Origin: Nitrospinota bacterium
Lineage (GTDB): Bacteria; Nitrospinota; Nitrospinia; UBA9942; JAHJSF01
NCBI GenBank assembly: GCA_018830405.1
Contig: JAHJSF010000033.1
Coordinates: 1 to 16,869, forward strand
DNA length: 16,869 bases
Direction of reading: 5' to 3'
A program made the position numbers and the translations under genes. The notes beneath the pieces were generated by a model that worked only from the letters and a program-made list of their open reading frames with translations, searched no databases and had not been told where the DNA came from. Of this stretch, positions 1,900 to 16,869 are shown piece after piece (position 1 is the stretch's first letter; each line of letters opens with the position of its first letter).

Positions 1900-2766
1900 T
1901 TGAAGCGTGTAATTATAAATGCCGATGACTTCGGTCTTTGTGACGCTGTTAATCGCGGTATTGTAAAGGGGTATCGTGAGGGGATTTTAACCAGCGCTAC
2001 GATTATGGCCAATATGGCCGGTTTTGATCAGGCGGTGGAGCTGGCCAAGGAGAATCCGGGATTGGGCGTTGGTCTGCACCTAAACCTCCTTAGGGGAGAA
2101 CCGATTTCCCAACAGGGTAAGGTTTCAACTCTATTGAGGAATGGGAGCTTTCTCGACAGCGCCGGTTCTTTTCTGATAAGGCTGCTTAGCGGCGGGATAA
2201 GTGAGGGGGAGGTTGAAACTGAGCTTAGGGGACAGATTGAAAAGGCCTTAAATGCGGGGCTTAAGATTACACACTTTGATAGCGAGAAACACCTCCATTC
2301 CTTTCCTCCTATCTTCAAGGTTGCCCTCAAACTGGCTGTGGAATATAGGATAGGGGCAATAAGAAGGATAGCCGAACCAATTTATCCTCAGCTGCGGGGG
2401 AGAAAAGCTGTTTTTTGGAATCCTCAGTTTTATAAGACCATCCTCCTTGACGGTCTCCACGTCTACATGGCTGGCCGGATAGATAGAAGCGGAATAAGAT
2501 ATGCCGATTGTTTCTACGGGGTGCTTTACAGCGGCGGGATGAATAGTGAGAAATATGATACGATTTTCGAGAAGATCCAAGAAGGGGTCACCGAAATTAT
2601 GTGCCACCCTGGATATCTCGCTTCTGCCGGGGAAATATCGAGGGGGGCTAACTACTACATAAACAGATTCAGAGAGATTGATCTTAACGGCTTGTTAGAC
2701 CAATCCCTGAAGATAAAGGCTGAAAAGCTTGGAATACAATTTATAAACTACGGAGATATTAATTAG
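1900..2766 (+). CDS. YdjC/ChbG/HpnK-family carbohydrate deacetylase (NaxD-like)
   Basis: Predicted metal-dependent hydrolase that removes an N-acetyl group from a sugar. The fold signature NADDFG (residues 7-12) supplies the metal Asp. His60 in GLHLNLL, His131/His133 in SEKHLHS and the late MCHPGYL segment match the family's metal and active-site His positions. Length (288 aa) is normal. The start is TTG at 1900, backed by GGAG about 6 nt upstream; a GTG three codons later lacks that spacing. It is first of four genes, with the GT2 gene 2 nt downstream. In Francisella a YdjC-family enzyme, NaxD, deacetylates undecaprenyl-P-GalNAc before transfer to lipid A; the neighbours here suggest the same role. 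HpnK of hopanoid clusters and ChbG (chitobiose) are the alternatives, but no hopanoid or chitobiose genes are seen. Confidence 0.85.
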   Translation: MKRVIINADDFGLCDAVNRGIVKGYREGILTSATIMANMAGFDQAVELAKENPGLGVGLHLNLLRGEPISQQGKVSTLLRNGSFLDSAGSFLIRLLSGGISEGEVETELRGQIEKALNAGLKITHFDSEKHLHSFPPIFKVALKLAVEYRIGAIRRIAEPIYPQLRGRKAVFWNPQFYKTILLDGLHVYMAGRIDRSGIRYADCFYGVLYSGGMNSEKYDTIFEKIQEGVTEIMCHPGYLASAGEISRGANYYINRFREIDLNGLLDQSLKIKAEKLGIQFINYGDIN

Positions 2767-2768
2767 CC

Positions 2769-3731
2769 ATGATAGATGTTTCGATAGTCGCGCCCCTCTA
2801 CAATGAGGAGGCCAATGCCTCTATTTTATATCAACGCCTGACCGATGTTATGAAGAAAGTTGGGGGGAGTTATGAGATAGTTTTTATTGACGACGGTAGC
2901 CGTGATAATACCTTGAAGATAGTGGAAGAGATTGCCAATAAAGACTCCAGCGTAAAGGTTGTTAAGCTTAAAAAGAATTTCGGCCAGACCCCTGCCTTGG
3001 CCGCGGGGATAGATAATGCGGAGGGGGAGATTATTGTTACCATGGACGGAGACCTTCAGCACGACCCGGATGATATCCCCCTCTTCCTGGAAAAGATGAA
3101 AGAGGGATACGATATAGTCAGCGGCTGGAGAAAAAAACGAGTTGATAATTTTGTAGTTAGGAGATTTCCTTCAATGGTGGCCAATAAGATGATGTCCATA
3201 ATATCTGGGGTAGATCTCCACGATTTCGGCACTACCTTTAAGGCCTACAAGAAGGATGTCATCAAGGATATTGAGCTTTATGGGGAGATGCACCGTTTTA
3301 TCCCTGCTTTGGCCAGCATTAACGGGGTTACCGTCTGTGAAATCCCGATAAAGAATATTCTGAGGGATGGGGGGGAATCTAACTATGGGCTTGGAAGGAT
3401 ACTACCTGTTCTGTTTGATCTCTTCCATATCAAGTTTATGGTCAGCTATTCGAGGAAACCGCTCCACTTCTTCGGTCTTGTAGGCGGGACATCATTTGTT
3501 CTGGGAAGCTCAATAGCCACAATCATCTTCTTTAAGAAGATATTTTTTGGGACGGCCGTCTTTGTAGAGCATGGGCCTCTACTATTTCTGGCTACAATCC
3601 TTATAATATTCGGAGTTCAGATTATAACCTTTGGTTTGCTAGCCGAACTGTTGGTAAGGATATACCACAACACTCGAAACAGTAAGATATACAAGGTCGA
3701 TAAAATTATCGGCGGGGGAGGGGAAAAATGA
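2769..3731 (+). CDS. Polyprenyl-phosphate glycosyltransferase, GT2 family (ArnC/GtrB/FlmF-like)
   Basis: Predicted to transfer a sugar from a nucleotide donor to undecaprenyl phosphate on the cytoplasmic face of the inner membrane. The catalytic domain starts with SIVAPLYNEE (residues 5-14), has the Asp pair IDDGSRDNT (40-48) and the metal-binding DxD within TMDGDLQHDP (91-100). Two C-terminal hydrophobic helices (about 231-253 and 270-298) match the membrane-anchored layout of ArnC, GtrB and dolichol-phosphate-mannose synthase-like enzymes. Length of 320 aa is usual for this type. Its stop overlaps the next gene's start as ATGA. The donor sugar cannot be read from sequence; with a deacetylase upstream, UDP-GalNAc or UDP-GlcNAc is the natural guess. 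Confidence 0.88.
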   Translation: MIDVSIVAPLYNEEANASILYQRLTDVMKKVGGSYEIVFIDDGSRDNTLKIVEEIANKDSSVKVVKLKKNFGQTPALAAGIDNAEGEIIVTMDGDLQHDPDDIPLFLEKMKEGYDIVSGWRKKRVDNFVVRRFPSMVANKMMSIISGVDLHDFGTTFKAYKKDVIKDIELYGEMHRFIPALASINGVTVCEIPIKNILRDGGESNYGLGRILPVLFDLFHIKFMVSYSRKPLHFFGLVGGTSFVLGSSIATIIFFKKIFFGTAVFVEHGPLLFLATILIIFGVQIITFGLLAELLVRIYHNTRNSKIYKVDKIIGGGGEK

Positions 3732-4012
3732 CTTGGGATAAATGGATGTTTCTCGGCTTTGCCGCTCAGGGGATGTTCTTCATGCGCTTTATAGTCCAGT
3801 GGATTTCGTCCGAAATGAAGGGGAAGAGCGTTGTCCCGGTAGCCTTCTGGTATTTCAGCCTCTTCGGCGGGGCGATGCTCCTCGTATATTCGATACACAG
3901 AAAAGACCCTGTCTTTATCCTGGGGCAGGGTCTAGGGCTTATTATCTATGCCAGAAACCTCTTCCTGATACGGAAAGAAAAGAGGGATAAGGTTATAAAC
4001 GATGCGGAATAA
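3728..4012 (+). CDS. Stand-alone lipid-A-disaccharide-synthase N-terminal-domain (LAB_N) membrane protein
   Basis: A 94-residue protein with about three hydrophobic helices (roughly 5-22, 36-56 and 61-80). It contains the features of the LAB_N domain: FxMRFIVQWISSE near residue 20, then VVPVAFWYFSLFGG and a PVFILGQGLGLIIYARNL tail. The domain is otherwise found fused in front of some LpxB proteins, but here there is no LpxB catalytic part. It starts inside the GT2 stop codon (ATGA) after a GGGGGAGGGG ribosome-binding site, and its last 11 nt overlap the ArnT-like gene, so it is made stoichiometrically with both. Its biochemical role is not established to my knowledge. Its position between a lipid-linked-sugar synthase and a periplasmic transferase is where Arn systems place the ArnE/ArnF flippase. 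Confidence 0.85.
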   Translation: MTWDKWMFLGFAAQGMFFMRFIVQWISSEMKGKSVVPVAFWYFSLFGGAMLLVYSIHRKDPVFILGQGLGLIIYARNLFLIRKEKRDKVINDAE

Positions 4013-5669
4013 GGATGGAAGCAACTATCAGCCTTATCTGATTATCTTCTTGGCCGCCATTCTCCTCTTTTACGGCCTTCAAAGCGTAAGTTTTACCCAA
4101 TATATAGAGTTCTATTATCTTGAGTCGGCTAGGGAGATGATAGAGCTGCGGCAGTGGCTTGTTCCCAGTTTTAACTACTCCTACCGTTTTGATAAACCTA
4201 TCCTCTTCTATTGGCTGGTAGTCTTATTCTTTAAAGGTTTAGGTGTTAATCTTGCCTCTGCCCGATTGATTTCGGCTATATTTGGTGCGGGAACCCTTTA
4301 TCTCACCTATAGGATAGCCAGGGAGAGGAGCGGCAAATTGGGGGGATGGTTGGCTGCCGCCATACTTCTTTCAACCCCCCATTTTATTCTCATATCCCGT
4401 TCGGCCACAACGGATATGATGCTCACTTTCTTTATAACCTTTTCCCTCTTCGCCTATTTTTCTTTTTTGGAGGGAGCGAAGAGAGGATGGTTTTTCCCCC
4501 TCTACGCATCTCTGGCCTTGGCGACACTCACCAAGGGCCCAATCGGTTTTGTCATTCCGGTCTTGGTAATCTTTTCTCATCTGGCCGTTGGATGGGACAA
4601 GGAGAAACTATTTAATCTTAAGCCCGTTAAGGGGGCACTCTTATATCTGGCAATTATACTTCCTTGGACACTGGCAATTATAAAAGAGTATGGCCTTAAG
4701 GCTATGTTGAGCATTGTTCATGCCGCAGATGCCGCAGGAAAAGACCCGATAAAGGAACCTCTCTACTACTATTTCCAACATATCTTTGGGGAATTTTTCC
4801 CTTGGGGACCGCTCCTAATTATTTTATTCGTAGTGGTTTTGTTAAATAGGGAACTGTTTAAGGAAAGGTTTAAAAGGGATCTATTACCCTTTCTCTGGTT
4901 TCTGGTTCCCCTCCTCTTCCTCTCTATCTTCGACAAGAAGATTGCCAGATACATGTTGCCTGTCGCCCCCCCTATGGCGATTCTGCTGGCCGATATACTG
5001 ATTGATAGTCTAGAGAAGGGGCGCAGGGGAGTTGTAGGTATCTATAAAATATATTCCTATCTGCTGGCAATACTCCTCCTGGCCCTTTCAATAGGAACTA
5101 TGTTTATGGCCTTTATGGTAAGCAAATCATCTTTCAATTTTAGCCTGGGTCTTCCGGCCCTGCCCCTCCTCTTCCTGTTCGGAAGCGTAGGAATAATAAC
5201 CCTTGTTGTCAGAGGGAGAGAGGTTGATATCCCTTTAGCCTTTGCCGCAACCGTAATCCCTGTATTTATTATTGTAGGGGTTCATCTGATACCTAAAATG
5301 GATTCAAGGCCCCTCATGGAATTCGGTCATATTATAAATAAGGAACTAAGCCAAGAGGCTGTGGTTTCAATATACAGAGAGCAGCCTAACGACCTTATAT
5401 TTTTTGCTGCCAGAAAGATAGTGGTAATAGGTTCACCTGATGAGTTGAAAAACTTTGCGGCTGAGGAGGGGGAAAGGTTTTGCGTTATCTACGAGAAGGA
5501 TTTTAATTCCTTACCCAACCAGGTAAGGGCCGACCTGAATATTGTCTACTGGAGGCATCGTTGGCGGGATATAGACACACTTTCCAAGTTTGAAAGGTTT
5601 TTGGGAAATCCTGAGGAGTTTAAGTCTTGGGTGTATCTTGTAAAGATTGGTGGCGGTGCAGGGAATTGA
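4002..5669 (+). CDS. ArnT/GT39-like polyprenyl-phosphate-sugar:lipid A glycosyltransferase
   Basis: A 555-aa polytopic membrane protein with about 10-12 hydrophobic segments and a soluble C-terminal part from about residue 440. The first periplasmic loop keeps the family pattern: YLESAREMI (39-47), a QWLVP step and RFDKPILFYWL (62-72) containing the conserved Lys65-Pro66. Enzymes of this class move a sugar from undecaprenyl phosphate to lipid A or other acceptors on the periplasmic side. The usual Asp-Glu pair before this loop reads Ile35-Glu36 here, so catalysis may differ or be lost. The gene overlaps the LAB_N gene by 11 nt. Its last 22 nt lie antisense to the 3' end of a tRNA, and its C-terminal GGGAGN is encoded by the complement of the acceptor and T arms. 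Confidence 0.85.
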   Translation: MRNKDGSNYQPYLIIFLAAILLFYGLQSVSFTQYIEFYYLESAREMIELRQWLVPSFNYSYRFDKPILFYWLVVLFFKGLGVNLASARLISAIFGAGTLYLTYRIARERSGKLGGWLAAAILLSTPHFILISRSATTDMMLTFFITFSLFAYFSFLEGAKRGWFFPLYASLALATLTKGPIGFVIPVLVIFSHLAVGWDKEKLFNLKPVKGALLYLAIILPWTLAIIKEYGLKAMLSIVHAADAAGKDPIKEPLYYYFQHIFGEFFPWGPLLIILFVVVLLNRELFKERFKRDLLPFLWFLVPLLFLSIFDKKIARYMLPVAPPMAILLADILIDSLEKGRRGVVGIYKIYSYLLAILLLALSIGTMFMAFMVSKSSFNFSLGLPALPLLFLFGSVGIITLVVRGREVDIPLAFAATVIPVFIIVGVHLIPKMDSRPLMEFGHIINKELSQEAVVSIYREQPNDLIFFAARKIVVIGSPDELKNFAAEEGERFCVIYEKDFNSLPNQVRADLNIVYWRHRWRDIDTLSKFERFLGNPEEFKSWVYLVKIGGGAGN

Positions 5670-5724
5670 ACCCCGGACACTACGGATATGAGCCGTATGC
5701 TCTAACCATCTGAGCTACACCGCC
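5648..5724 (-). tRNA. tRNA-Met (CAU anticodon), elongator type
   Basis: The minus strand from 5724 folds as a complete cloverleaf: acceptor GGCGGTG/CACCGCC, D stem GCTC/GAGC, anticodon stem TACGG/CCGTA with loop CTCATAT (anticodon CAT), five-base variable loop and T stem CGGGG/CCCTG (one G-T pair) with loop TTCAATT. Discriminator A and CCA are encoded (5651-5648). The GGTTAGAGC D arm and paired first base fit elongator Met and exclude initiator; a lysidine-modified Ile-tRNA (CAU) is less likely but cannot be excluded by eye. It lies 17 nt downstream of pdxJ in the same orientation and overlaps the end of the opposing ArnT-like gene. Confidence 0.93.
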
Positions 5725-9439: not shown

Positions 9440-9859
9440 ATGCCGGAAGACTCTTTCGAACCTCTGATTATTACCTTCTGCTGCAATTGGTGTTCCTACG
9501 CCGGGGCAGATTTGGCCGGCACCTCAAGGATTCAATATCCTGCCTCTATCCGTATTATCCGTGTTATGTGCTCCGGAATGGTTCACCCAAATGTTGTTAT
9601 CGATACCCTTACCAAGGGGGCCGACGCTGTTATTATCTGCGGCTGTCACCCTGGTGATTGCCACTATCTCGAAGGAAATCTTAAGGCCGAGATGCGTCGT
9701 GAGGGGATTGAGCTATTGCTTGATGACCTTGGGCTAGAGCAGGAGCGTTTTCGCCTAGAGTGGGTCTCAGCCTCTGAGGGGCAGAAATTTGCCGCCCTTA
9801 TGACTGAAATGACAGACAAGGTTAAGGCCCTCGGTCCAAGTCCATATAGCACCAGTTGA
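9440..9859 (+). CDS. mvhD: Hydrogenase iron-sulfur subunit MvhD
   Basis: Small [2Fe-2S] protein that passes electrons between the hydrogenase (MvhAG) and HdrA in the Mvh-Hdr complex. It has 139 residues, typical of the family. Conserved cysteines are visible: Cys14, Cys15 and Cys18 in FCCNWCSYAGAD, Cys44 in RVMCSGMV, and Cys67, Cys69 and Cys74 in CGCHPGDC. GGAGCGG just upstream is a good ribosome-binding site for the ATG. It is the first gene of the hydrogenase-Hdr run. The next gene is separated from it by a 107-bp repeat element. In some genomes MvhD is fused to HdrA; here it is separate, as in methanogens. Confidence 0.93.
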   Translation: MPEDSFEPLIITFCCNWCSYAGADLAGTSRIQYPASIRIIRVMCSGMVHPNVVIDTLTKGADAVIICGCHPGDCHYLEGNLKAEMRREGIELLLDDLGLEQERFRLEWVSASEGQKFAALMTEMTDKVKALGPSPYSTS

Positions 9860-9885
9860 TTATGTACGACGACATAAATAGAACA

Positions 9886-9992
9886 GCATTCAGAGCATCA
9901 GAACAAAGCAGACCGAGGCGTATTTTCAGCATACGCCGCAACAACGAGCTGAGAAGCAACGAAGGTATGCGAAGTTAGGACGCTCTGTATAT
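9886..9992 (-). repeat. Dispersed palindromic repeat, copy 2 (inverted relative to copy 1)
   Basis: The reverse complement of 9886-9992 aligns along its length with 1705-1833, minus about 22 nt. The right end keeps ATATACAGAGCG; the other end is degraded (GCTCTGAATGC). The central hairpin is GGCGTAT/ATACGCC (9917-9923 with 9931-9937). Relative to copy 1's GACGTAT/ATACGTC an A-T pair has become G-C, with both strands changed together. It sits in the mvhD to small-gene gap of the hydrogenase operon. Confidence 0.75.
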
Positions 9993-10007
9993 TGAAAGGA
10001 AGTTATA

Positions 10008-10202
10008 GTGTCTCCTTTGACTTATAGGCAAGAGGCTGGGAAGAAGATAATGTGGGATGGGATTGTCTATAATAGTGCCGAGGAGGCTGATGGTAAGGCG
10101 GAAGGGTATCGATCTCACGGGTTTGAGGTCTATAGGTTTAGTGAAGAGGGAAAACATTTTGTATATACGAGACGGGTTTCCCAAGAAGTTCCCAGTGTGT
10201 AA
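10008..10202 (+). CDS. Small protein of unknown function in the hydrogenase operon
   Basis: A 64-residue soluble, charged protein that I do not recognise. The GTG start at 10008 is supported by AAAGGAAG about 7 nt upstream; the next possible start, ATG at 10050, has no such site and would remove the first 14 residues. It has no Cys, so it is not an iron-sulfur protein, and no membrane helix or signal peptide. The pattern is strand (KIMWDGIVYNS), helix (AEEADGKAEGYRSHG), two strands (FEVYRF, KHFVYTRRV), like a compact alpha/beta fold. It lies between mvhD and mvhG on the same strand, so it may be an accessory or assembly partner of the hydrogenase; that is inferred from position only. Confidence 0.65.
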   Translation: MSPLTYRQEAGKKIMWDGIVYNSAEEADGKAEGYRSHGFEVYRFSEEGKHFVYTRRVSQEVPSV

Positions 10203-10265
10203 AAGGCAGTTCAGTTTTTTGTGTGGGTAAACGTTAAACCACGATGATAGAGAAGGAGGCGCATT

Positions 10266-11216
10266 ATGGCAGTTAGAGTAGCGGAAGAATGGCTTAATAT
10301 TTGCGGTGGGTGTGAGGTTAGTATCTTGGACATCGGTGACCAGCTCCTCGATATTCTCCCGGCCCTTGAGTTTGTTCATATGCCTGTCCTTATGGACAGT
10401 AAATATTATGGACAGCTTGGTGAGAGGGATCATATGGAGATTCCCGAGGCGGATGTCGGAATTATCTCCGGAGGGATTAGGAATGATGAGGAAAAAAAGA
10501 TTGCCGAGGAGATGCGTAAAAAGTGTAAGACACTGATTACGCTCGGTTCATGTGCCTGTTTCGGTGGCATACCGGCCATGGCCAATATGTGGAGTGTTGA
10601 TGAGTTGACTGACAAGGTTTATCGACACTGCTCTACAACTGAATCAGCCGCCACCCCAACCGAAAATATTCCTGGACTCCTTGATAGGGTCTATGCGGTG
10701 GATGAGGTAGTTGATGTAGATGTCACCATTCCCGGTTGCCCCCCATCACCGGATATGATTGTTGAGGCCCTGACCTGCCTCTTGGAGGGGAAACCATTCA
10801 TCCTTCCCGAGAAGAGTGTCTGTGACGAATGCCCAGCCAAGAGGGAGAAGAAGGCCGCCGGAGGGGATATAAAGAGACCTCTTCAGCCTCTCGATATAAA
10901 GGTTGGAGAACCGTGGGAGAATACCAGGTGTTTCATGGAGCAGGGGGTGCTTTGCATTGGGCCTGTCACCAGGGCCGGTTGTTCCGGGACCACTGTTGAG
11001 GAAGGGGAGGAGAAGGTTCCTCGTTGTATCAAGGGTTATATGCCTTGCCGGGGCTGTTTCGGCCCCATCCGTAAAGGGGCCAATCCTTTGGTTGACATGG
11101 TAAGTTCTATATCATCTATAGGGCTTGACGTAAAACAGGTTGTCGATAGGAGGGCCCTGCTCAATAGATATATAGGCGGTCAAAACAGACTGAAACCTTT
11201 ACCAGTAAGAAATTAG
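10266..11216 (+). CDS. mvhG: F420-non-reducing [NiFe]-hydrogenase small subunit MvhG
   Basis: Electron-transfer subunit of a group 3c-type cytoplasmic hydrogenase; carries electrons from the Ni-Fe site to MvhD. There is no twin-arginine signal, as expected for a cytoplasmic enzyme. Cys13 and Cys16 in NICGGCE, Cys96 or Cys98 in LGSCACFGG and Cys158 in IPGCPPSPD form the proximal [4Fe-4S] site. A second set (Cys186, Cys189, Cys222, Cys230, Cys239, Cys254, Cys261, Cys264) can supply two more clusters. Length of 316 aa fits the family. The ATG has a strong AGAAGGAGG site. It is followed 9 nt later by the large subunit. Confidence 0.95.
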   Translation: MAVRVAEEWLNICGGCEVSILDIGDQLLDILPALEFVHMPVLMDSKYYGQLGERDHMEIPEADVGIISGGIRNDEEKKIAEEMRKKCKTLITLGSCACFGGIPAMANMWSVDELTDKVYRHCSTTESAATPTENIPGLLDRVYAVDEVVDVDVTIPGCPPSPDMIVEALTCLLEGKPFILPEKSVCDECPAKREKKAAGGDIKRPLQPLDIKVGEPWENTRCFMEQGVLCIGPVTRAGCSGTTVEEGEEKVPRCIKGYMPCRGCFGPIRKGANPLVDMVSSISSIGLDVKQVVDRRALLNRYIGGQNRLKPLPVRN

Positions 11217-11225
11217 GAGAAAAGC

Positions 11226-12671
11226 ATGTCAAAGACAATAACAATTGCACCGGTTAGTCGTATAGAGGGTCATGCCAAGGTAACCATACAGCTGAATGAT
11301 GCTGGGGATGTGGCTGATACCTTTGTTAATGTTGTTGAGTTGCGCGGGTTTGAGAAATTCTGTATAGGGCGTCCGGCTGAGGAGATGCCCCGTATAACCA
11401 CGAGTATCTGCGGAGTTTGTCCTTGGTCACACCATCTAGCCTCGGCCAAGGCTGCGGATGCCGTCTTCGGAGTAACACCTCCTCCGGCCGGAAAGAAGCT
11501 GAGAGAACTTTGTAACAGTATGGCCTACTGTGAAGAGCATATCCTCCACTTTTTCTTCCTGGCAGGGGCCGACTTTGTAATGGGCCCGGACGCCAACTAT
11601 AAGGTTAGAAACGTATTCGGTATTGCTGCGGCCAACCCTGAGATAGGGAAGATGGTTGTTCATAACCGTCATTTGGCCGGCAAGATGCTCCATATAGTTT
11701 CCGGTAAGTCTATCCACCCGGTTACTGCGGTTCCGGGAGGATTCAGCAAACCTATGACCGAAGGGGAGAGGGTTAAACTTCTCGCTATGGCTGAGGAACT
11801 GTTGGAGTTCGCCAAGTTTTCCATGAAGTGGGCCAAAGAATCGGTATTCCCCGCCTATCTTGAGGCCATAAAGACAATTGGTGTTATCAATACCGGCTTT
11901 ATGGGGACGGTCGATGATAAGGGGGGCCTTAACCTCTATGACGGTAAACTGAGACTGATGAAGGCGGACGGCACATTCATCGATTTCCCGATAGAGGATT
12001 ACGAGAAGCATATCAGCGAGAAGGTTCTTCCTTGGACATTCCTTAAATTCCCATATGCCAAGTCATGGAACGAGGGCTTTTCTATGGATTTGGATGCCCC
12101 GAAGGGTATTTACAGAACAAATACCTTGGCCAGAATGAATGTCTGTGATCATATCCCGACACCTTTGGCACAGAAAGAGCTTGAGGAGTTTAGGGCCGCC
12201 TTTGGACGACCTGCCCAATTGACCCTGTTGTATAATTATGCCAGGCTGATTGAGCTTCTCTACAATGCGGAGAATATTATTCAGCTCTTGAATGATAAGG
12301 ATATTACCAGTACCGATACCTGGACACCGGTGAAGCCAAGGGCTGCCCGTGGCATAGCCCATGTTGAGGCCCCTCGTGGGACACTCATACATGATTATGA
12401 AACGGATGCCGATGGTATGATTACCAATGTCAACCTTATAGTCGGGACAACCCACAATAATGCCCCAATCAATATGTCGGTCAAACAGGCCGCCACTACC
12501 TTGATAAAGGGTGGGGTATATGACGAGGGTATTCTGAATAAGGTCGAGATGGCTATTAGAGCCTATGATCCATGTCTATCATGTGCCACACACAACCTTG
12601 ACGGAACTCTTCCTGTGAAGGTTGATATTGTGGATGCCTCAGGCAAGACAATTCAGACCCTAAAAAATTAA
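11226..12671 (+). CDS. mvhA: F420-non-reducing [NiFe]-hydrogenase large (catalytic) subunit MvhA
   Basis: Holds the Ni-Fe(CN)2CO site that splits or forms H2. Residues 7-15 (IAPVSRIEG) start the family signature. The N-terminal metal motif is SICGVCPWSHH (Cys62, Cys65) and the C-terminal one DPCLSCATH (Cys450, Cys453, His456), giving all four Ni/Fe ligands as ordinary Cys codons, with no selenocysteine. After His456 there is a 25-residue tail, the part removed by a maturation protease after nickel insertion; that protease is encoded next. Length is 481 aa. The ATG has AGGAGA upstream. With MvhG and MvhD this is a group 3c-like enzyme, although a bacterial group 3c/3d-related subtype cannot be decided by eye. 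Confidence 0.95.
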   Translation: MSKTITIAPVSRIEGHAKVTIQLNDAGDVADTFVNVVELRGFEKFCIGRPAEEMPRITTSICGVCPWSHHLASAKAADAVFGVTPPPAGKKLRELCNSMAYCEEHILHFFFLAGADFVMGPDANYKVRNVFGIAAANPEIGKMVVHNRHLAGKMLHIVSGKSIHPVTAVPGGFSKPMTEGERVKLLAMAEELLEFAKFSMKWAKESVFPAYLEAIKTIGVINTGFMGTVDDKGGLNLYDGKLRLMKADGTFIDFPIEDYEKHISEKVLPWTFLKFPYAKSWNEGFSMDLDAPKGIYRTNTLARMNVCDHIPTPLAQKELEEFRAAFGRPAQLTLLYNYARLIELLYNAENIIQLLNDKDITSTDTWTPVKPRAARGIAHVEAPRGTLIHDYETDADGMITNVNLIVGTTHNNAPINMSVKQAATTLIKGGVYDEGILNKVEMAIRAYDPCLSCATHNLDGTLPVKVDIVDASGKTIQTLKN

Positions 12672-12730
12672 GGTTAATCCCTGTTTTGTGTGGAACCTTG
12701 AGGTGATAAGAAGAAACTTTTTAAGTTACC

Positions 12731-12780
12731 CTCCACTTGCTCCCCTCCCCCTTGAGGGGGTAGGGTTAGGGTGGGGGTGT
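12731..12780 (+). repeat. G/C-tract palindromic repeat between mvhA and the protease gene
   Basis: The 119-nt gap contains a stem CCCCCT/AGGGGG (12747-12752 with 12755-12760, very tight loop) flanked by pyrimidine-rich and purine-rich arms, then GGGTTAGGGTGGGGGTG. The upper arm is C/T and the lower arm G/T-rich, so the whole block can fold back. Similar C-tract palindromes occur as dispersed repeats in many bacterial genomes (recollection, not a search). It is not followed by a T-run, so it is not a classic terminator. Its end lies 10 nt before the protease ATG. Confidence 0.55.
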
Positions 12781-12790
12781 AGAGGGATTT

Positions 12791-13282
12791 ATGGATTGGT
12801 CTCCTGATTTTTGCGAGAAGAGGATTATTGTTCTCGGTTGCGGCAATATCCTGTTTGGGGACGACGGCTTCGGTCCTGCGGTAATTGAACATATAGATGA
12901 TAACTATTCCGTTCCTGATGATACCTGCTTTGTTGATGCAGGTACATCGGTTCGGGAGATACTCTTTGACCTTATCTTGGTTGAGAAGAAGCCGGAGAGA
13001 GTTATAGTTGTTGATGCGGCTGACAAGGGGAGGGTGCCCGGGGAGATCTATACCATCCCCTTAGAGGGTATGCCGGAAAAAAAGACAGATGTCTTCTCCC
13101 TCCATATCGCCCCTTCGGTTAACCTACTGAAGGAGCTACAAGATTTCTGCGGGATAGAGGTAATTGTTTTGGTCTGCCAGCCTGCCAGCCTGCCTGAAGA
13201 GGTTTCCCCCGGGTTATCCAATGTTGTGAGAGAGAAGATTCCTGAGATTAGCAGACTTATATTTGAGAAATATTTAGGCTGA
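12791..13282 (+). CDS. [NiFe]-hydrogenase maturation protease (HycI/HyaD/FrcD family)
   Basis: Endopeptidase that clips the C-terminal tail of the hydrogenase large subunit once nickel is in place, letting the active site close. The N-terminal motif VLGCGNILFGDDGFGPAV (14-31) contains the acidic nickel-sensing residue; VVDAAD (Asp75) and SLHIAP (His105) match the second acidic and the His ligand of HybD-type proteases. At 163 aa it has normal length. AGAGGGA ahead of the ATG acts as ribosome-binding site and directly abuts the G-rich repeat. Position right after mvhA, whose product has a 25-residue tail after DPCLSCATH, identifies the substrate. hdrC starts 5 nt after its stop. Confidence 0.93.
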   Translation: MDWSPDFCEKRIIVLGCGNILFGDDGFGPAVIEHIDDNYSVPDDTCFVDAGTSVREILFDLILVEKKPERVIVVDAADKGRVPGEIYTIPLEGMPEKKTDVFSLHIAPSVNLLKELQDFCGIEVIVLVCQPASLPEEVSPGLSNVVREKIPEISRLIFEKYLG

Positions 13283-13287
13283 GAAAA

Positions 13288-13842
13288 ATGAACTTAACGC
13301 CAACATTATCATTTGCCGAGGAGATTAGAAAACGAAGCGGTGAGGATGTCAACCTCTGCTATCAGTGCGGACGTTGTTCGGCCGGTTGTCCTACCAGCTA
13401 CATTATGGATGTTGTTCCCCACAGACTGATTCACAGCATAAGGTTGGGCAGAGAAGAGTTTATCCTTGGCAGTAAAACAATGTGGCTCTGCGCCTCGTGC
13501 GAGACCTGTAGTACCAGATGCCCCAGAGATATAGATATTGCCAAGATTATGGATAACCTTAAGATTCTTTCGGTTGAGAAGGGGATTAAAACCCCTGTTC
13601 CTGAGGTTTCCGCTTTCTACTCTTCCGCCCTTAACAGCATCAGAAGGTTTGGAAGAATCCATGAACTTAGTATGGTAACTGAGATTAAGTTAAAGACTCA
13701 TCAGTTTATGCGGGATTTAAAACTTGGTCTCCAGATGATGAGAATGGGAAAGATAAAGCTTCTCCCTGAAACAAACGCAACAAGAAGGGGCATTGTTCGA
13801 GATATATTTGCCAATGTCAAAAAGAGGGAAAAGGGGCAATAG
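13288..13842 (+). CDS. hdrC: Heterodisulfide reductase subunit C, [4Fe-4S] ferredoxin-like
   Basis: Electron-wire subunit between HdrA and HdrB. Two classic CxxCxxCxxxCP motifs are visible: Cys24, 27, 30, 34 (LCYQCGRCSAGCP) and Cys68, 71, 74, 78 (LCASCETCSTRCP), binding two [4Fe-4S] clusters. The C-terminal half (about 90-184) is helical and basic and gives the usual length of 184 aa. There is no membrane segment, so this is the soluble HdrC, not the membrane HdrE type. It lies between the protease gene and hdrB, with only 1 nt before the hdrB start. Confidence 0.95.
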   Translation: MNLTPTLSFAEEIRKRSGEDVNLCYQCGRCSAGCPTSYIMDVVPHRLIHSIRLGREEFILGSKTMWLCASCETCSTRCPRDIDIAKIMDNLKILSVEKGIKTPVPEVSAFYSSALNSIRRFGRIHELSMVTEIKLKTHQFMRDLKLGLQMMRMGKIKLLPETNATRRGIVRDIFANVKKREKGQ

Positions 13843-13843
13843 T

Positions 13844-14695
13844 ATGAAATACGCTTATTATCCTGGTTGTTCGCTGCATTCAACGGGTGCTGAGTATGAT
13901 GAGTCCTTCAGGGCAATATGCAATAAGATGGAAATTACGCTTGATGAGATACCTGACTGGGTCTGCTGCGGAACCCTGCCGGCCCACAGTTCCTCAAAGC
14001 TTCTCTCTGTTTCTCTTCCGATAAAAAACCTGGCCTTGGCCGAGGCGATGGGACACCGAGAAGTTGTTGTCCCGTGTGCTGCCTGTTATTCCCGTTTCAA
14101 GAAGGCTCTCTACGAAACGGAGCACGACGGGGAATTGGCTACCGAGGTAAACGGAATAATAGAGGATGAGTATAAAGGGAGTGTTAATGTTATTCACCCC
14201 TTAGAGGCCTTTGATGGAATTGATCACAACATTATAAAGAAGCATATAGTCAGGGATATATCTAATCTAAAGGTGGTCTGCTATTACGGCTGCCTCCTCA
14301 CGCGCCCCCCCAAGGTAATGAATTTTGATAACAGCGAATATCCGATGATTATGGATAAGATAGCCGAGACCGCCGGGGCGACCGTTCTTGATTGGTCTTA
14401 CAAAACAGACTGCTGCGGCGGAAGCATCGCCCTGAGCGAGACCGATATGGTTCTGGAGCTTTGTCACTATATCCTGGAAGAGGCGGACGCAGTTGGGGCG
14501 GATGCTATTATTGTGGCCTGTCCCCTCTGCCATTCAAATCTGGATAATCGCCAACCGGAGATAGATGCAAAATATTATATAGAGCATAAGGTTCCTATAC
14601 TCTATTTTAGCCAACTTATTGGCCTCGCCTTCGGGATGAAGCCCGAAGAATTGGGGCTTCACAAGCATTTCATTAGCGCCGATTCCCTCCTATAA
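13844..14695 (+). CDS. hdrB: Heterodisulfide reductase subunit B (CCG domain)
   Basis: Catalytic subunit that reduces a disulfide-type substrate at two non-cubane [4Fe-4S] clusters. Both CCG motifs are intact: Cys9-Cys41-Cys42-Cys78-Cys81 and Cys150-Cys190-Cys191-Cys226-Cys229. The spacings (31, 35 and 39, 34 residues) match the CX31-39CCX35-36CXXC rule, the last one residue short. The start is the ATG at 13844 just before YAYYPGCS, with AAGGGG upstream; the frame is open further left to 13793, but that part overlaps hdrC and would displace the conserved N-terminal motif. Length is 283 aa. In methanogens the substrate is CoM-S-S-CoB; in bacteria it is usually unknown. Confidence 0.95.
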   Translation: MKYAYYPGCSLHSTGAEYDESFRAICNKMEITLDEIPDWVCCGTLPAHSSSKLLSVSLPIKNLALAEAMGHREVVVPCAACYSRFKKALYETEHDGELATEVNGIIEDEYKGSVNVIHPLEAFDGIDHNIIKKHIVRDISNLKVVCYYGCLLTRPPKVMNFDNSEYPMIMDKIAETAGATVLDWSYKTDCCGGSIALSETDMVLELCHYILEEADAVGADAIIVACPLCHSNLDNRQPEIDAKYYIEHKVPILYFSQLIGLAFGMKPEELGLHKHFISADSLL

Positions 14696-14716
14696 AAGGA
14701 GAGATATTTGAATATT

Positions 14717-14748
14717 TCCCCCTTTAGAAAAGGGGGATGAAGGGGGAT
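14717..14748 (+). repeat. C5T3/A3G5 hairpin with tandem GGGGGAT
   Basis: Perfect 9-bp stem TCCCCCTTT/AAAGGGGGA (14717-14725 with 14729-14737, loop AGA), followed by AGGGGGAT repeated with a GA spacer (14731-14738 and 14741-14748). No T-run follows. It resembles widespread intergenic C-tract repeats (recollection). It begins 22 nt after the hdrB stop. Confidence 0.6.
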
Positions 14749-14767
14749 TTGAAAGGTTTTGGTTTCC

Positions 14768-14799
14768 TCTCCCTTTCTTGCTCGTCCAAGAAAGGGAGA
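14768..14799. repeat. Perfect 13-bp hairpin in the hdrB-hdrA gap
   Basis: TCTCCCTTTCTTG (14768-14780) pairs perfectly with CAAGAAAGGGAGA (14787-14799) around loop CTCGTC. It lacks a 3' T-tract, so it is unlikely to terminate intrinsically; it could protect the hdrB 3' end after processing. Confidence 0.65.
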
Positions 14800-14808
14800 A
14801 AGAAGACG

Positions 14809-14947
14809 CCGCCCGCCCATTTTTTTAACGGTTTGAAATGACGGTTGGTTTTGGAGCCTAAAGAACTCGCAAGGCTACGCCTTGCTCAGACAGGCTTTAG
14901 GCTTATTCCGCAACCAACCTATTTCAACCCTAAAAATGAGAGGGCGG
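14809..14947. repeat. 139-bp imperfect palindrome (MITE/REP-like) before hdrA
   Basis: Nested inverted blocks share one centre near 14877: CCGCCC (14809-14814) with GGGCGG (14942-14947), TTGAAAT (14833-14839) with ATTTCAA (14921-14927), GGTTGGTT (14843-14850) with AACCAACC (14912-14919), GCCTAAAG (14856-14863) with CTTTAGGC (14895-14902), and the core GCAAGGC/GCCTTGC (14869-14875 with 14879-14885, loop TAC). No gene lies inside. A full-length transcript would form one long stem. Together with the two hairpins to its left it accounts for most of the 298-nt hdrB-hdrA gap. Confidence 0.75.
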
Positions 14948-14993
14948 ATACAGAAAGATTTATGTAAATGATCGCTATATAAGAGAAATCGAA

Positions 14994-16869
14994 ATGAGTG
15001 ATAGTAAGGATAAGATAGGGTCGGTCATGGTTGTAGGGGGCGGGATAGGAGGGATGCAGGCCTCCCTCGATCTGGCCGAATCTGGATACAAGGTATATCT
15101 AGTTGAGAGGAACAGTTCCATAGGAGGAACAATGGCCCAGCTCGACAAGACCTTCCCCACCAATGATTGCGCTATGTGTACTCTGGCTCCCCGTCTGATT
15201 GATGTGGGACAGCACCCGGATATCATCAAGATTACCAATGCCAATATTGATAAGATCGAAGGGGAGCCTGGTAATTTTAAGGTTACCGTCAAGAGAAGGG
15301 CGACTTATGTCGATACCGATAAATGCACCGGATGCAGCTCCTGTATAGAAAAATGTCCTATCAAGGTGGACAGCGAGTTTGACCTTGAGCTGATTAAGAG
15401 GAATGCCATATATCGCCGTTATCCTCAGGCTGTTCCTAATACCTTTTCTATAGATAAACAGGGAGTCTCTCCTTGCCGTGTGGCTTGTCCGGCCGGGGTA
15501 AATGCCCACGCCTATGTGGCCTTGATTGCCCAAAGAAGATTTGAAGATGCCCTTGAGGTAGTTAGAAGGGTTTTGCCCTTCCCCTCAATATGCGGCCGGT
15601 TGTGTCATCACCCCTGTGAGGGGGAGTGTAACCGTAAGGATGTTGATGAGGCGGTCAATATAAGGGTTCTCAAGTCTTTTATCGCCGATAAGGCAAGGAG
15701 CACAGGCGAAACCCCTCCTGAGATTATCAAACCTGGGAAGGATAAGAGGATAGCCATAGTCGGGGCTGGTCCGGCCGGATTGACCTGCGCAGCCAATCTA
15801 CTTGAAAGAGGATATCAGGTTACCGTCTATGAAGCCTCTTCTAAGGCGGGGGGTATGATAACCTCATCTATCCCCGAATATCGCCTATCATCCGAAGTGG
15901 CCAATTACGATATAGACAGGCTACTGGCCAAGGGGATAGAAATTGTAACAGGAAAAAGGATAGGCCATGATATCCCCCTATCCGAGCTTAAAGATAAATA
16001 TGATGCCCTCTTTGTAGCCACAGGATATCAAAACCCGACCAAACTCCCCATTGAGGGGGTTGATACTCCCGGCGTATTCTACGGGCTCCCCTTCCTCAAG
16101 GATGTAAAAGGGAGGAAGCAATTGGAACACTTCGGCAAAGATGTTGTTGTCATAGGCGGAGGAAACGTGGCCATAGATACGGCCAGAACTGCTCTAAGGA
16201 TGGGGGCCAAGGATGTCAAGATTGTCTGCCTGGAGACGAGAGATTTAGAACATAAGGACAGGATGCCGGCCCACTCGTGGGAGATAGAGGAGGCCGAGGA
16301 AGAGGGGGTTCTGGTACACGGTTCCTCCGGCCCCCAAAAGATTCTCTCCAAGGGGGGGAAGGTATCAGGTGTAGAGGTAGCCGAATGTGTCTCGGTCTAC
16401 AAGATAGACAGTGATGGGAAGAAGGTCTTTGCTCCTAAGTTTGCCGATGGGGCTACCAAGATGATATTTGCCGATACGATCATTATCTCAATCGGTCAAA
16501 GTGCCGACCTGACCGGATTTGAAGAACTGGAGAAAGGGGAGAGGGGGATGATTAAAACGGATTCCCTTACCCTTGAAACGAGCGTTAAAGGGATATTTGC
16601 CGGAGGGGATATTGTTCGAGGGCCAGCCTCGGTTATAGAGGCGGTTGATAATGGTAATGAGGCGGCCACCTCGATAGACAGATATCTGAGTGGTCTCGAC
16701 CTTAGAGAGGGGAGGGGAGAAAGGCCTGAAATAGCCGGACTTCCCGAGAGGAAGATAGAGAAGAAGAAACGCCGCAATCCCGACAAACTCGACCCTGAGA
16801 AGAGATCAGCTTCCTTCGATGAAGTTGAGCTTGGTTTCAGTGAGGATGAGGCCGTGGCTGAGGCAGAGC
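14994..16869 (+). CDS. hdrA: Heterodisulfide reductase subunit A with inserted NfnB/GltD-like NAD(P)H-flavin module (partial, 3' end beyond window)
   Basis: Flavin subunit expected to bifurcate electrons between ferredoxin and the HdrBC branch. I read 625 codons with no stop. Domains: FAD-binding GGGIGG (15-20); the HdrA-type Cys59-Ala-Met-Cys62 followed by TLAPRLIDVGQHPDI; a ferredoxin motif Cys111, 114, 117, 121 (CTGCSSCIEKCP); then Cys161/165 (SPCRVACP) and Cys200, 204, 208, 212 (CGRLCHHPCEGEC), the cluster domain of glutamate-synthase small subunit and NfnB; a second FAD site VGAGPAGL (256-263); and an NAD(P) site GGGNVAID (388-395), with a late AGGDIV. Methanogen HdrA lacks this second flavoprotein part, so this subunit probably also exchanges electrons with NAD(P)H. 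The ATG at 14994 has only a weak AAGAGA site. The charged region from about residue 585 looks like a linker back to HdrA sequence. Confidence 0.93.
   Translation, partial: MSDSKDKIGSVMVVGGGIGGMQASLDLAESGYKVYLVERNSSIGGTMAQLDKTFPTNDCAMCTLAPRLIDVGQHPDIIKITNANIDKIEGEPGNFKVTVKRRATYVDTDKCTGCSSCIEKCPIKVDSEFDLELIKRNAIYRRYPQAVPNTFSIDKQGVSPCRVACPAGVNAHAYVALIAQRRFEDALEVVRRVLPFPSICGRLCHHPCEGECNRKDVDEAVNIRVLKSFIADKARSTGETPPEIIKPGKDKRIAIVGAGPAGLTCAANLLERGYQVTVYEASSKAGGMITSSIPEYRLSSEVANYDIDRLLAKGIEIVTGKRIGHDIPLSELKDKYDALFVATGYQNPTKLPIEGVDTPGVFYGLPFLKDVKGRKQLEHFGKDVVVIGGGNVAIDTARTALRMGAKDVKIVCLETRDLEHKDRMPAHSWEIEEAEEEGVLVHGSSGPQKILSKGGKVSGVEVAECVSVYKIDSDGKKVFAPKFADGATKMIFADTIIISIGQSADLTGFEELEKGERGMIKTDSLTLETSVKGIFAGGDIVRGPASVIEAVDNGNEAATSIDRYLSGLDLREGRGERPEIAGLPERKIEKKKRRNPDKLDPEKRSASFDEVELGFSEDEAVAEAE

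Follow-up and report, generated by a model that had tools for sequence, protein, structure and literature searches.

The window, by which is meant the whole stretch of DNA analyzed here, is one whole contig of 16,869 bp from a Nitrospinota genome of 1.42 Mb that is 87%-complete. ORF calling on the contig gives a cassette of four intact open reading frames, all on the forward strand, encoding a YdjC/HpnK-type carbohydrate deacetylase of 288 residues (1900-2766), an ArnC/GtrB-type family 2 glycosyltransferase (GT2) of 320 residues with a C-terminal membrane part, assigned as a polyprenyl-phosphate sugar synthase (2769-3731), a LAB_N protein of 94 residues, a putative PQ-loop/SemiSWEET-like flippase (3728-4012), and a GT-C transferase of 555 residues that is PMT- and ArnT-like (GT39; 4002-5669). 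Successive genes are spaced by +2, -4, and -11 nt, an operon-like arrangement. The four genes and the spacing given in a preliminary description of this DNA are thus reproduced exactly, with family assignments far above chance, and the absence of ArnA and ArnB, which it also claimed, holds on the contig as judged by ORF calling and by Pfam and NCBIfam annotation of that contig.

The gene that diverges from the cassette belongs to an HldE that is split into two adjacent genes on the reverse strand (1-1651) and would provide heptose for the LPS core. These are a heptose 7-phosphate kinase (domain I, 449-1651; TIGR02198, 306.6 bits with a cut-off of 345) and a heptose 1-phosphate adenylyltransferase (domain II, 1-462; TIGR02199, 178.9 bits with a cut-off of 181.5), the latter being truncated by the contig end; the TIGR02198 match begins at residue 79 of the kinase, the true start of which is probably near 1417. 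Downstream, the cassette is bounded by a tRNA-Met gene on the reverse strand (5648-5724), which shares ∼20 nt with the 3' end of the transferase gene. Further downstream, positions 9440-16868 contain genes for an FlpD/MvhD-like protein, the small and large subunits of a hydrogenase, a maturation protease, and HdrC-, HdrB-, and HdrA-like proteins, which together look like an electron-bifurcating cluster of the Mvh-Hdr type, unexpected in relatives of the nitrite-oxidizing Nitrospina. PADLOC gave no match to a defense function.

The deacetylase passes the Pfam profile of the YdjC family (PF04794; 217 bits, 4.8e-64, cut-off 29.7), and begins with a TTG codon that GGAG precedes at a distance of six bases. 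In an alignment of 54 YdjC sequences, it keeps Asp9, Asp10, His60, His133, and His236, with Asp9, Asp10, His60, and His236 being invariant in the set. The metal ligands of ChbG are Asp11, His61, and His125, and we take the corresponding columns of the window protein to be its metal site. The expected Asp-His-His site is not matched, since Asp10 and His60 are present but Glu129 (codon GAG, 2284-2286, forward strand) replaces the second His; in this third ligand column, His occurs in 47 of the 54 sequences, Asn in 6, and Glu solely in the window protein. A carboxylate side chain is able to bind metal, so the Glu129 site may work with a different metal preference, or it may be impaired, and replacement of the His may have changed or weakened the activity of the enzyme. 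Asn at this position, within a GNNH or SNNH motif, characterizes a well supported YdjC clade (loci L193, L203, L206, L207, L213, and L216), and one other YdjC relative (L154; G098:C169:11998-12693) has a single in-frame TGA stop. Viral contigs contained no YdjC relatives. Vertical inheritance of YdjC within Nitrospinota was considered and rejected, as just weak, partial matches were found in 4 other genomes.

Both glycosyltransferases have Arn proteins as their nearest relatives among named families but score far under the respective cut-offs. The GT2 matches Pfam Glycos_transf_2 (119.6 bits, 1.8e-34), is nearest to ArnC in NCBIfam (PRK10714; 199 bits over its full length, cut-off 529), and aligns end to end with the solved structure of ArnC, 9hwj (3.4e-51). 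The GT-C transferase matches PMT (PF02366; 71.5 bits, 1.1e-19) and PMT_2 (68.6 bits) and is nearest to ArnT in NCBIfam (PRK13279; 104.5 bits, cut-off 567), and ArnT (5ezm, 4.9e-21) is its sole match among solved structures. At the acidic pair in the first loop of ArnT, the window transferase has Ile-Glu; this Glu is conserved, and several other loci likewise lack the first Asp.

In other systems, the flipping of a lipid-linked sugar is assigned to ArnEF and GtrA. The LAB_N protein of the window matches PF07578 with 111.8 bits (1.7e-32), and AlphaFold2 predicts a fold of three helices with a pLDDT of 95. SemiSWEET chains (4x5m, 4x5n, and 4qnc) rank at the top of a Foldseek search with this model but are weak matches (E 0.34-1.1), and the VIA-align Z score of 6.6 with SemiSWEET lies within background, so that VIA-align was rejected as structural support for this fold. 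The suggested role as a flippase is therefore drawn from the position of the gene and from the family, for which a link to PQ-loop/SemiSWEET proteins has been published (PMC3281891).

The wider distribution of these genes was surveyed by scanning 84,980 species genomes for LAB_N and taking the best 80 loci, a sample that is biased toward relatives of the window LAB_N. Of the 80, 64 have a GT2 within 300 bp and 51 have a PMT within 2.5 kb; the two occur together in 44, from which it follows that the three proteins probably act together. In annotated plasmids, a GT2, a “lipid-A-disaccharide synthase N-terminal domain” protein, and a GT39 occur in the same order three times, and GT2 and LAB_N occur in two more. 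Within Nitrospinota, a LAB_N gene is present in 50 of 77 genomes, with a GT2 adjoining in nearly all of the loci fetched; the scan of these 77 genomes, in which the family of the host stands alone, gave no LAB_N match in the order-mates of the host. In Thalassospira, Ilyobacter, and Cetobacterium (L144, L145, and L146), genes for a response regulator and a sensor kinase adjoin those for GT2 and LAB_N, suggesting a regulated modification of the envelope. The adjacent GT2, LAB_N, and GT39 of the window reproduce this trio, which is an already known and common arrangement; what is unusual is the addition of YdjC, together with a GT2 of the ArnC type. The earlier view of the locus as an Arn/Flm-like cassette built from a different parts list should be modified in this sense: the version with YdjC and the ArnC-type GT2 is indeed uncommon, whereas the trio is widespread and has its best described relative in Rgt rather than Arn.

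The frequency of the trio without YdjC raises the question of whether the cassette, like Rgt, adds a neutral or acidic sugar such as galacturonate to lipid A or the core, with the YdjC protein being degenerate or acting in some other step. In Mesorhizobium, rgtE is found upstream of rgtF, which encodes a lipid A galacturonate transferase (PMC5644692), the Cetobacterium GT2-LAB_N region includes annotations for a GDP-mannose 4,6-dehydratase and a UDP-glucose dehydrogenase, and the presence of Glu129 in the window deacetylase is also in keeping with such a function. On balance we regard it as unlikely, because the YdjC reading frame is intact and ends 2 nt before the GT2, because the remaining conserved columns of the active site are kept, and because the pairing of YdjC with GT2 recurs at other loci.

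A search of gene neighborhoods was among the checks proposed in the preliminary description, and it shows that the parts recur together elsewhere. YdjC is near LAB_N at just one of the 80 best LAB_N loci, L113, where the arrangement is LAB_N, PMT, a gene read as GtrA, YdjC, and GT2. The phylum that holds this genome, which is not Nitrospinota, was searched for YdjC, and relatives were found in 98 of its 395 genomes; among 40 contexts examined from the better matches, YdjC lies directly beside an ArnC-like GT2 and LAB_N in four (L222, L227, L230, and L237), each in a different genome. L237 (4959-13000) additionally has an ArnT-like PMT and, between the PMT and the GT2, a gene for an EptA-like lipid A phosphoethanolamine transferase, and genes for TolC and an HpnN-like RND transporter adjoin its YdjC. 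At a further locus, L233, YdjC, GT2, and PMT extend up to the contig end. The YdjC proteins of these five loci form one clade and the GT2s another, each with 100/100 support, and these matching clades show, at the level of the trees, that the two genes were inherited jointly. The relationship of the window cassette to this group is looser. Its GT2 is 45-50% identical to those of the five loci across its length, equally close GT2s are found at many loci without LAB_N or YdjC, and a single clade of the window GT2 with those of the recurring cassettes is neither supported nor excluded by the tree test (p-AU 0.39), so the window cassette may have been put together independently from the same set of genes. 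The window deacetylase is likewise not firmly grouped with the recurring cassettes in the YdjC tree.

The recurring loci also bear on what the sugar is attached to. An amino sugar might be transferred to an envelope acceptor other than lipid A, such as a side branch of the O-antigen or core, as in Gtr systems, a glycoprotein, or some other polymer, and the gene read as GtrA beside YdjC and GT2 in L113, the occurrence of closely related GT2s outside LAB_N and YdjC contexts, and the inclusion of protein transferases in the PMT family are all compatible with this. We nevertheless consider such acceptors quite improbable, given that ArnT alone is matched among solved structures by the transferase, that L237 couples the set with an EptA-like enzyme, and that no O-antigen genes are present within the window.

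The envelope chemistry of the host is relevant to the same question. BamA, LpxD, LpxA, LpxI, and LpxB are encoded by a single run of genes in this genome, with WaaA at another location, and it follows from this gene content that lipid A is synthesized by the host. A search for LpxC in the 87%-complete genome was negative, but an interpretation of its absence as a lack of lipid A was rejected in view of the other Lpx proteins and WaaA, and of the presence of LpxC in 65 of the 77 Nitrospinota genomes; the missing gene probably lies in an assembly gap. Between LpxA and LpxI, the host has a gene resembling UDP-GlcNAc 3-dehydrogenase (GnnA-like; L140, 6841-7806), hinting at a lipid A with 2,3-diamino sugars.

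A different type of product would result if the deacetylase acted on a hopanoid or phospholipid glycoside, in the manner of HpnI-HpnK or gpgSDF, the latter of which produces GlcN-phosphatidylglycerol (PMC12713373). HpnK (TIGR03473) is the nearest NCBIfam family of the window deacetylase, although at 183 bits the match is under the cut-off of 232.6, and the HpnN-like and TolC family genes of L237 have counterparts in L227, L230, and L233, where ORFs were likened to them by size and place alone; these neighbors allow a link with hopanoids in those relatives. For the host, a hopanoid explanation was rejected after a search for squalene-hopene cyclase in its 87%-complete genome proved negative. 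Furthermore, the HpnK reference proteins fall in a different part of the YdjC tree from the window deacetylase, the GT2 is ArnC-like, and lipids of this type need no GT-C enzyme, so that the glycolipid route appears very improbable for the window cassette.

The interpretation that we prefer, with slightly better than even confidence, is that the cassette carries out a four-step glycosylation of the envelope. The GT2 would load an N-acetylhexosamine from a common UDP-HexNAc onto undecaprenyl phosphate at the inner membrane face, and the YdjC enzyme would then strip the acetyl group to give a positively charged hexosamine. A LAB_N dimer would flip the lipid-linked sugar so that it faces the periplasm, where the ArnT-like enzyme would use lipid A or the inner core as acceptor for the hexosamine. 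That a lipid-linked amino sugar is made and transferred is likely; that lipid A or the core is the acceptor has about an even chance. We infer the identity of the sugar, the order of the steps, the flipping and its direction, the acceptor, and any consequences for charge or for resistance to polymyxin. The reading of the locus as an amino-sugar cassette, as put forward in the preliminary description, is therefore retained with a reservation: each part agrees with the scheme of synthase, deacetylase, small membrane protein, and GT-C transferase, lipid A is made by the host, and the parts recur elsewhere, but the deacetylase has Glu for the third metal-ligand His.

A broader proposal is that such loci represent a distinct and widespread class of systems that modify lipid A with amino sugars, in which LAB_N is a PQ-loop flippase for deacetylated polyprenyl-phosphate-hexosamine, the set is a bacterial counterpart of DPM1-MPDU1-PMT, and the YdjC enzyme has an Asp-His-Glu metal site; this we view as doubtful. 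The preferred interpretation itself would extend the masking of lipid A charge with amino sugars to lineages of uncultured Nitrospinota and deltaproteobacteria, in which four genes make up a compact system. The GT2-LAB_N-GT39 trio also offers a bacterial setting in which the role of a PQ-loop protein with polyprenyl-phosphate-sugars can be tested directly. The eukaryotic line of Dol-P-Man synthase, MPDU1, and PMT similarly comprises a DPM1-like GT2, a PQ-loop protein, and a transferase with a PMT fold that act on a polyprenyl-phosphate-sugar, but the sugar is mannose or glucose, and the exact role of human MPDU1 is unsolved (PMC4281381).

Comparisons can be made with several bacterial systems. 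HpnI-HpnK, a pair that is present in Paraburkholderia, and gpgSDF also combine a glycosyltransferase with a deacetylase to give a glucosaminyl lipid, but their end products are the lipids themselves, and a GT-C transfer step is lacking. The best described system with the trio arrangement, rgtE-rgtF of Mesorhizobium and Rhizobium, modifies lipid A with galacturonate (PMC5644692, PMC7663294); its GT2 adjoins a PMT-family lipid A transferase, and LAB_N accompanies such genes at many loci, but Rgt has no deacetylase, its sugar is a uronic acid, and the window GT2, with 320 residues and a membrane part, differs from the GT2s of ∼240 residues at most LAB_N loci. In the Flm/NaxD systems of Francisella and Acinetobacter (FlmF2, NaxD, and FlmK), NaxD, a member of the YdjC superfamily, deacetylates GalNAc on undecaprenyl phosphate prior to transfer to lipid A (PMC11279074, PMC10927774). 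Compared by description, these systems share with the window cassette an ArnC-like GT2, a YdjC-superfamily deacetylase of lipid-linked HexNAc, and an ArnT-like transferase, as well as the absence of ArnA and ArnB that is seen on the contig, but the window cassette differs in having LAB_N, in the organization of all four genes as one unit, and in the Glu129 form of the deacetylase. With the Arn operon (ArnBCADTEF), it shares ArnC- and ArnT-like proteins and the order of functions, which is to charge, unmask, flip, and transfer, but it has YdjC in place of ArnD and LAB_N in place of ArnE and ArnF. We do not classify the window cassette as either Arn or Flm; it combines parts of two known systems in an unusual way.
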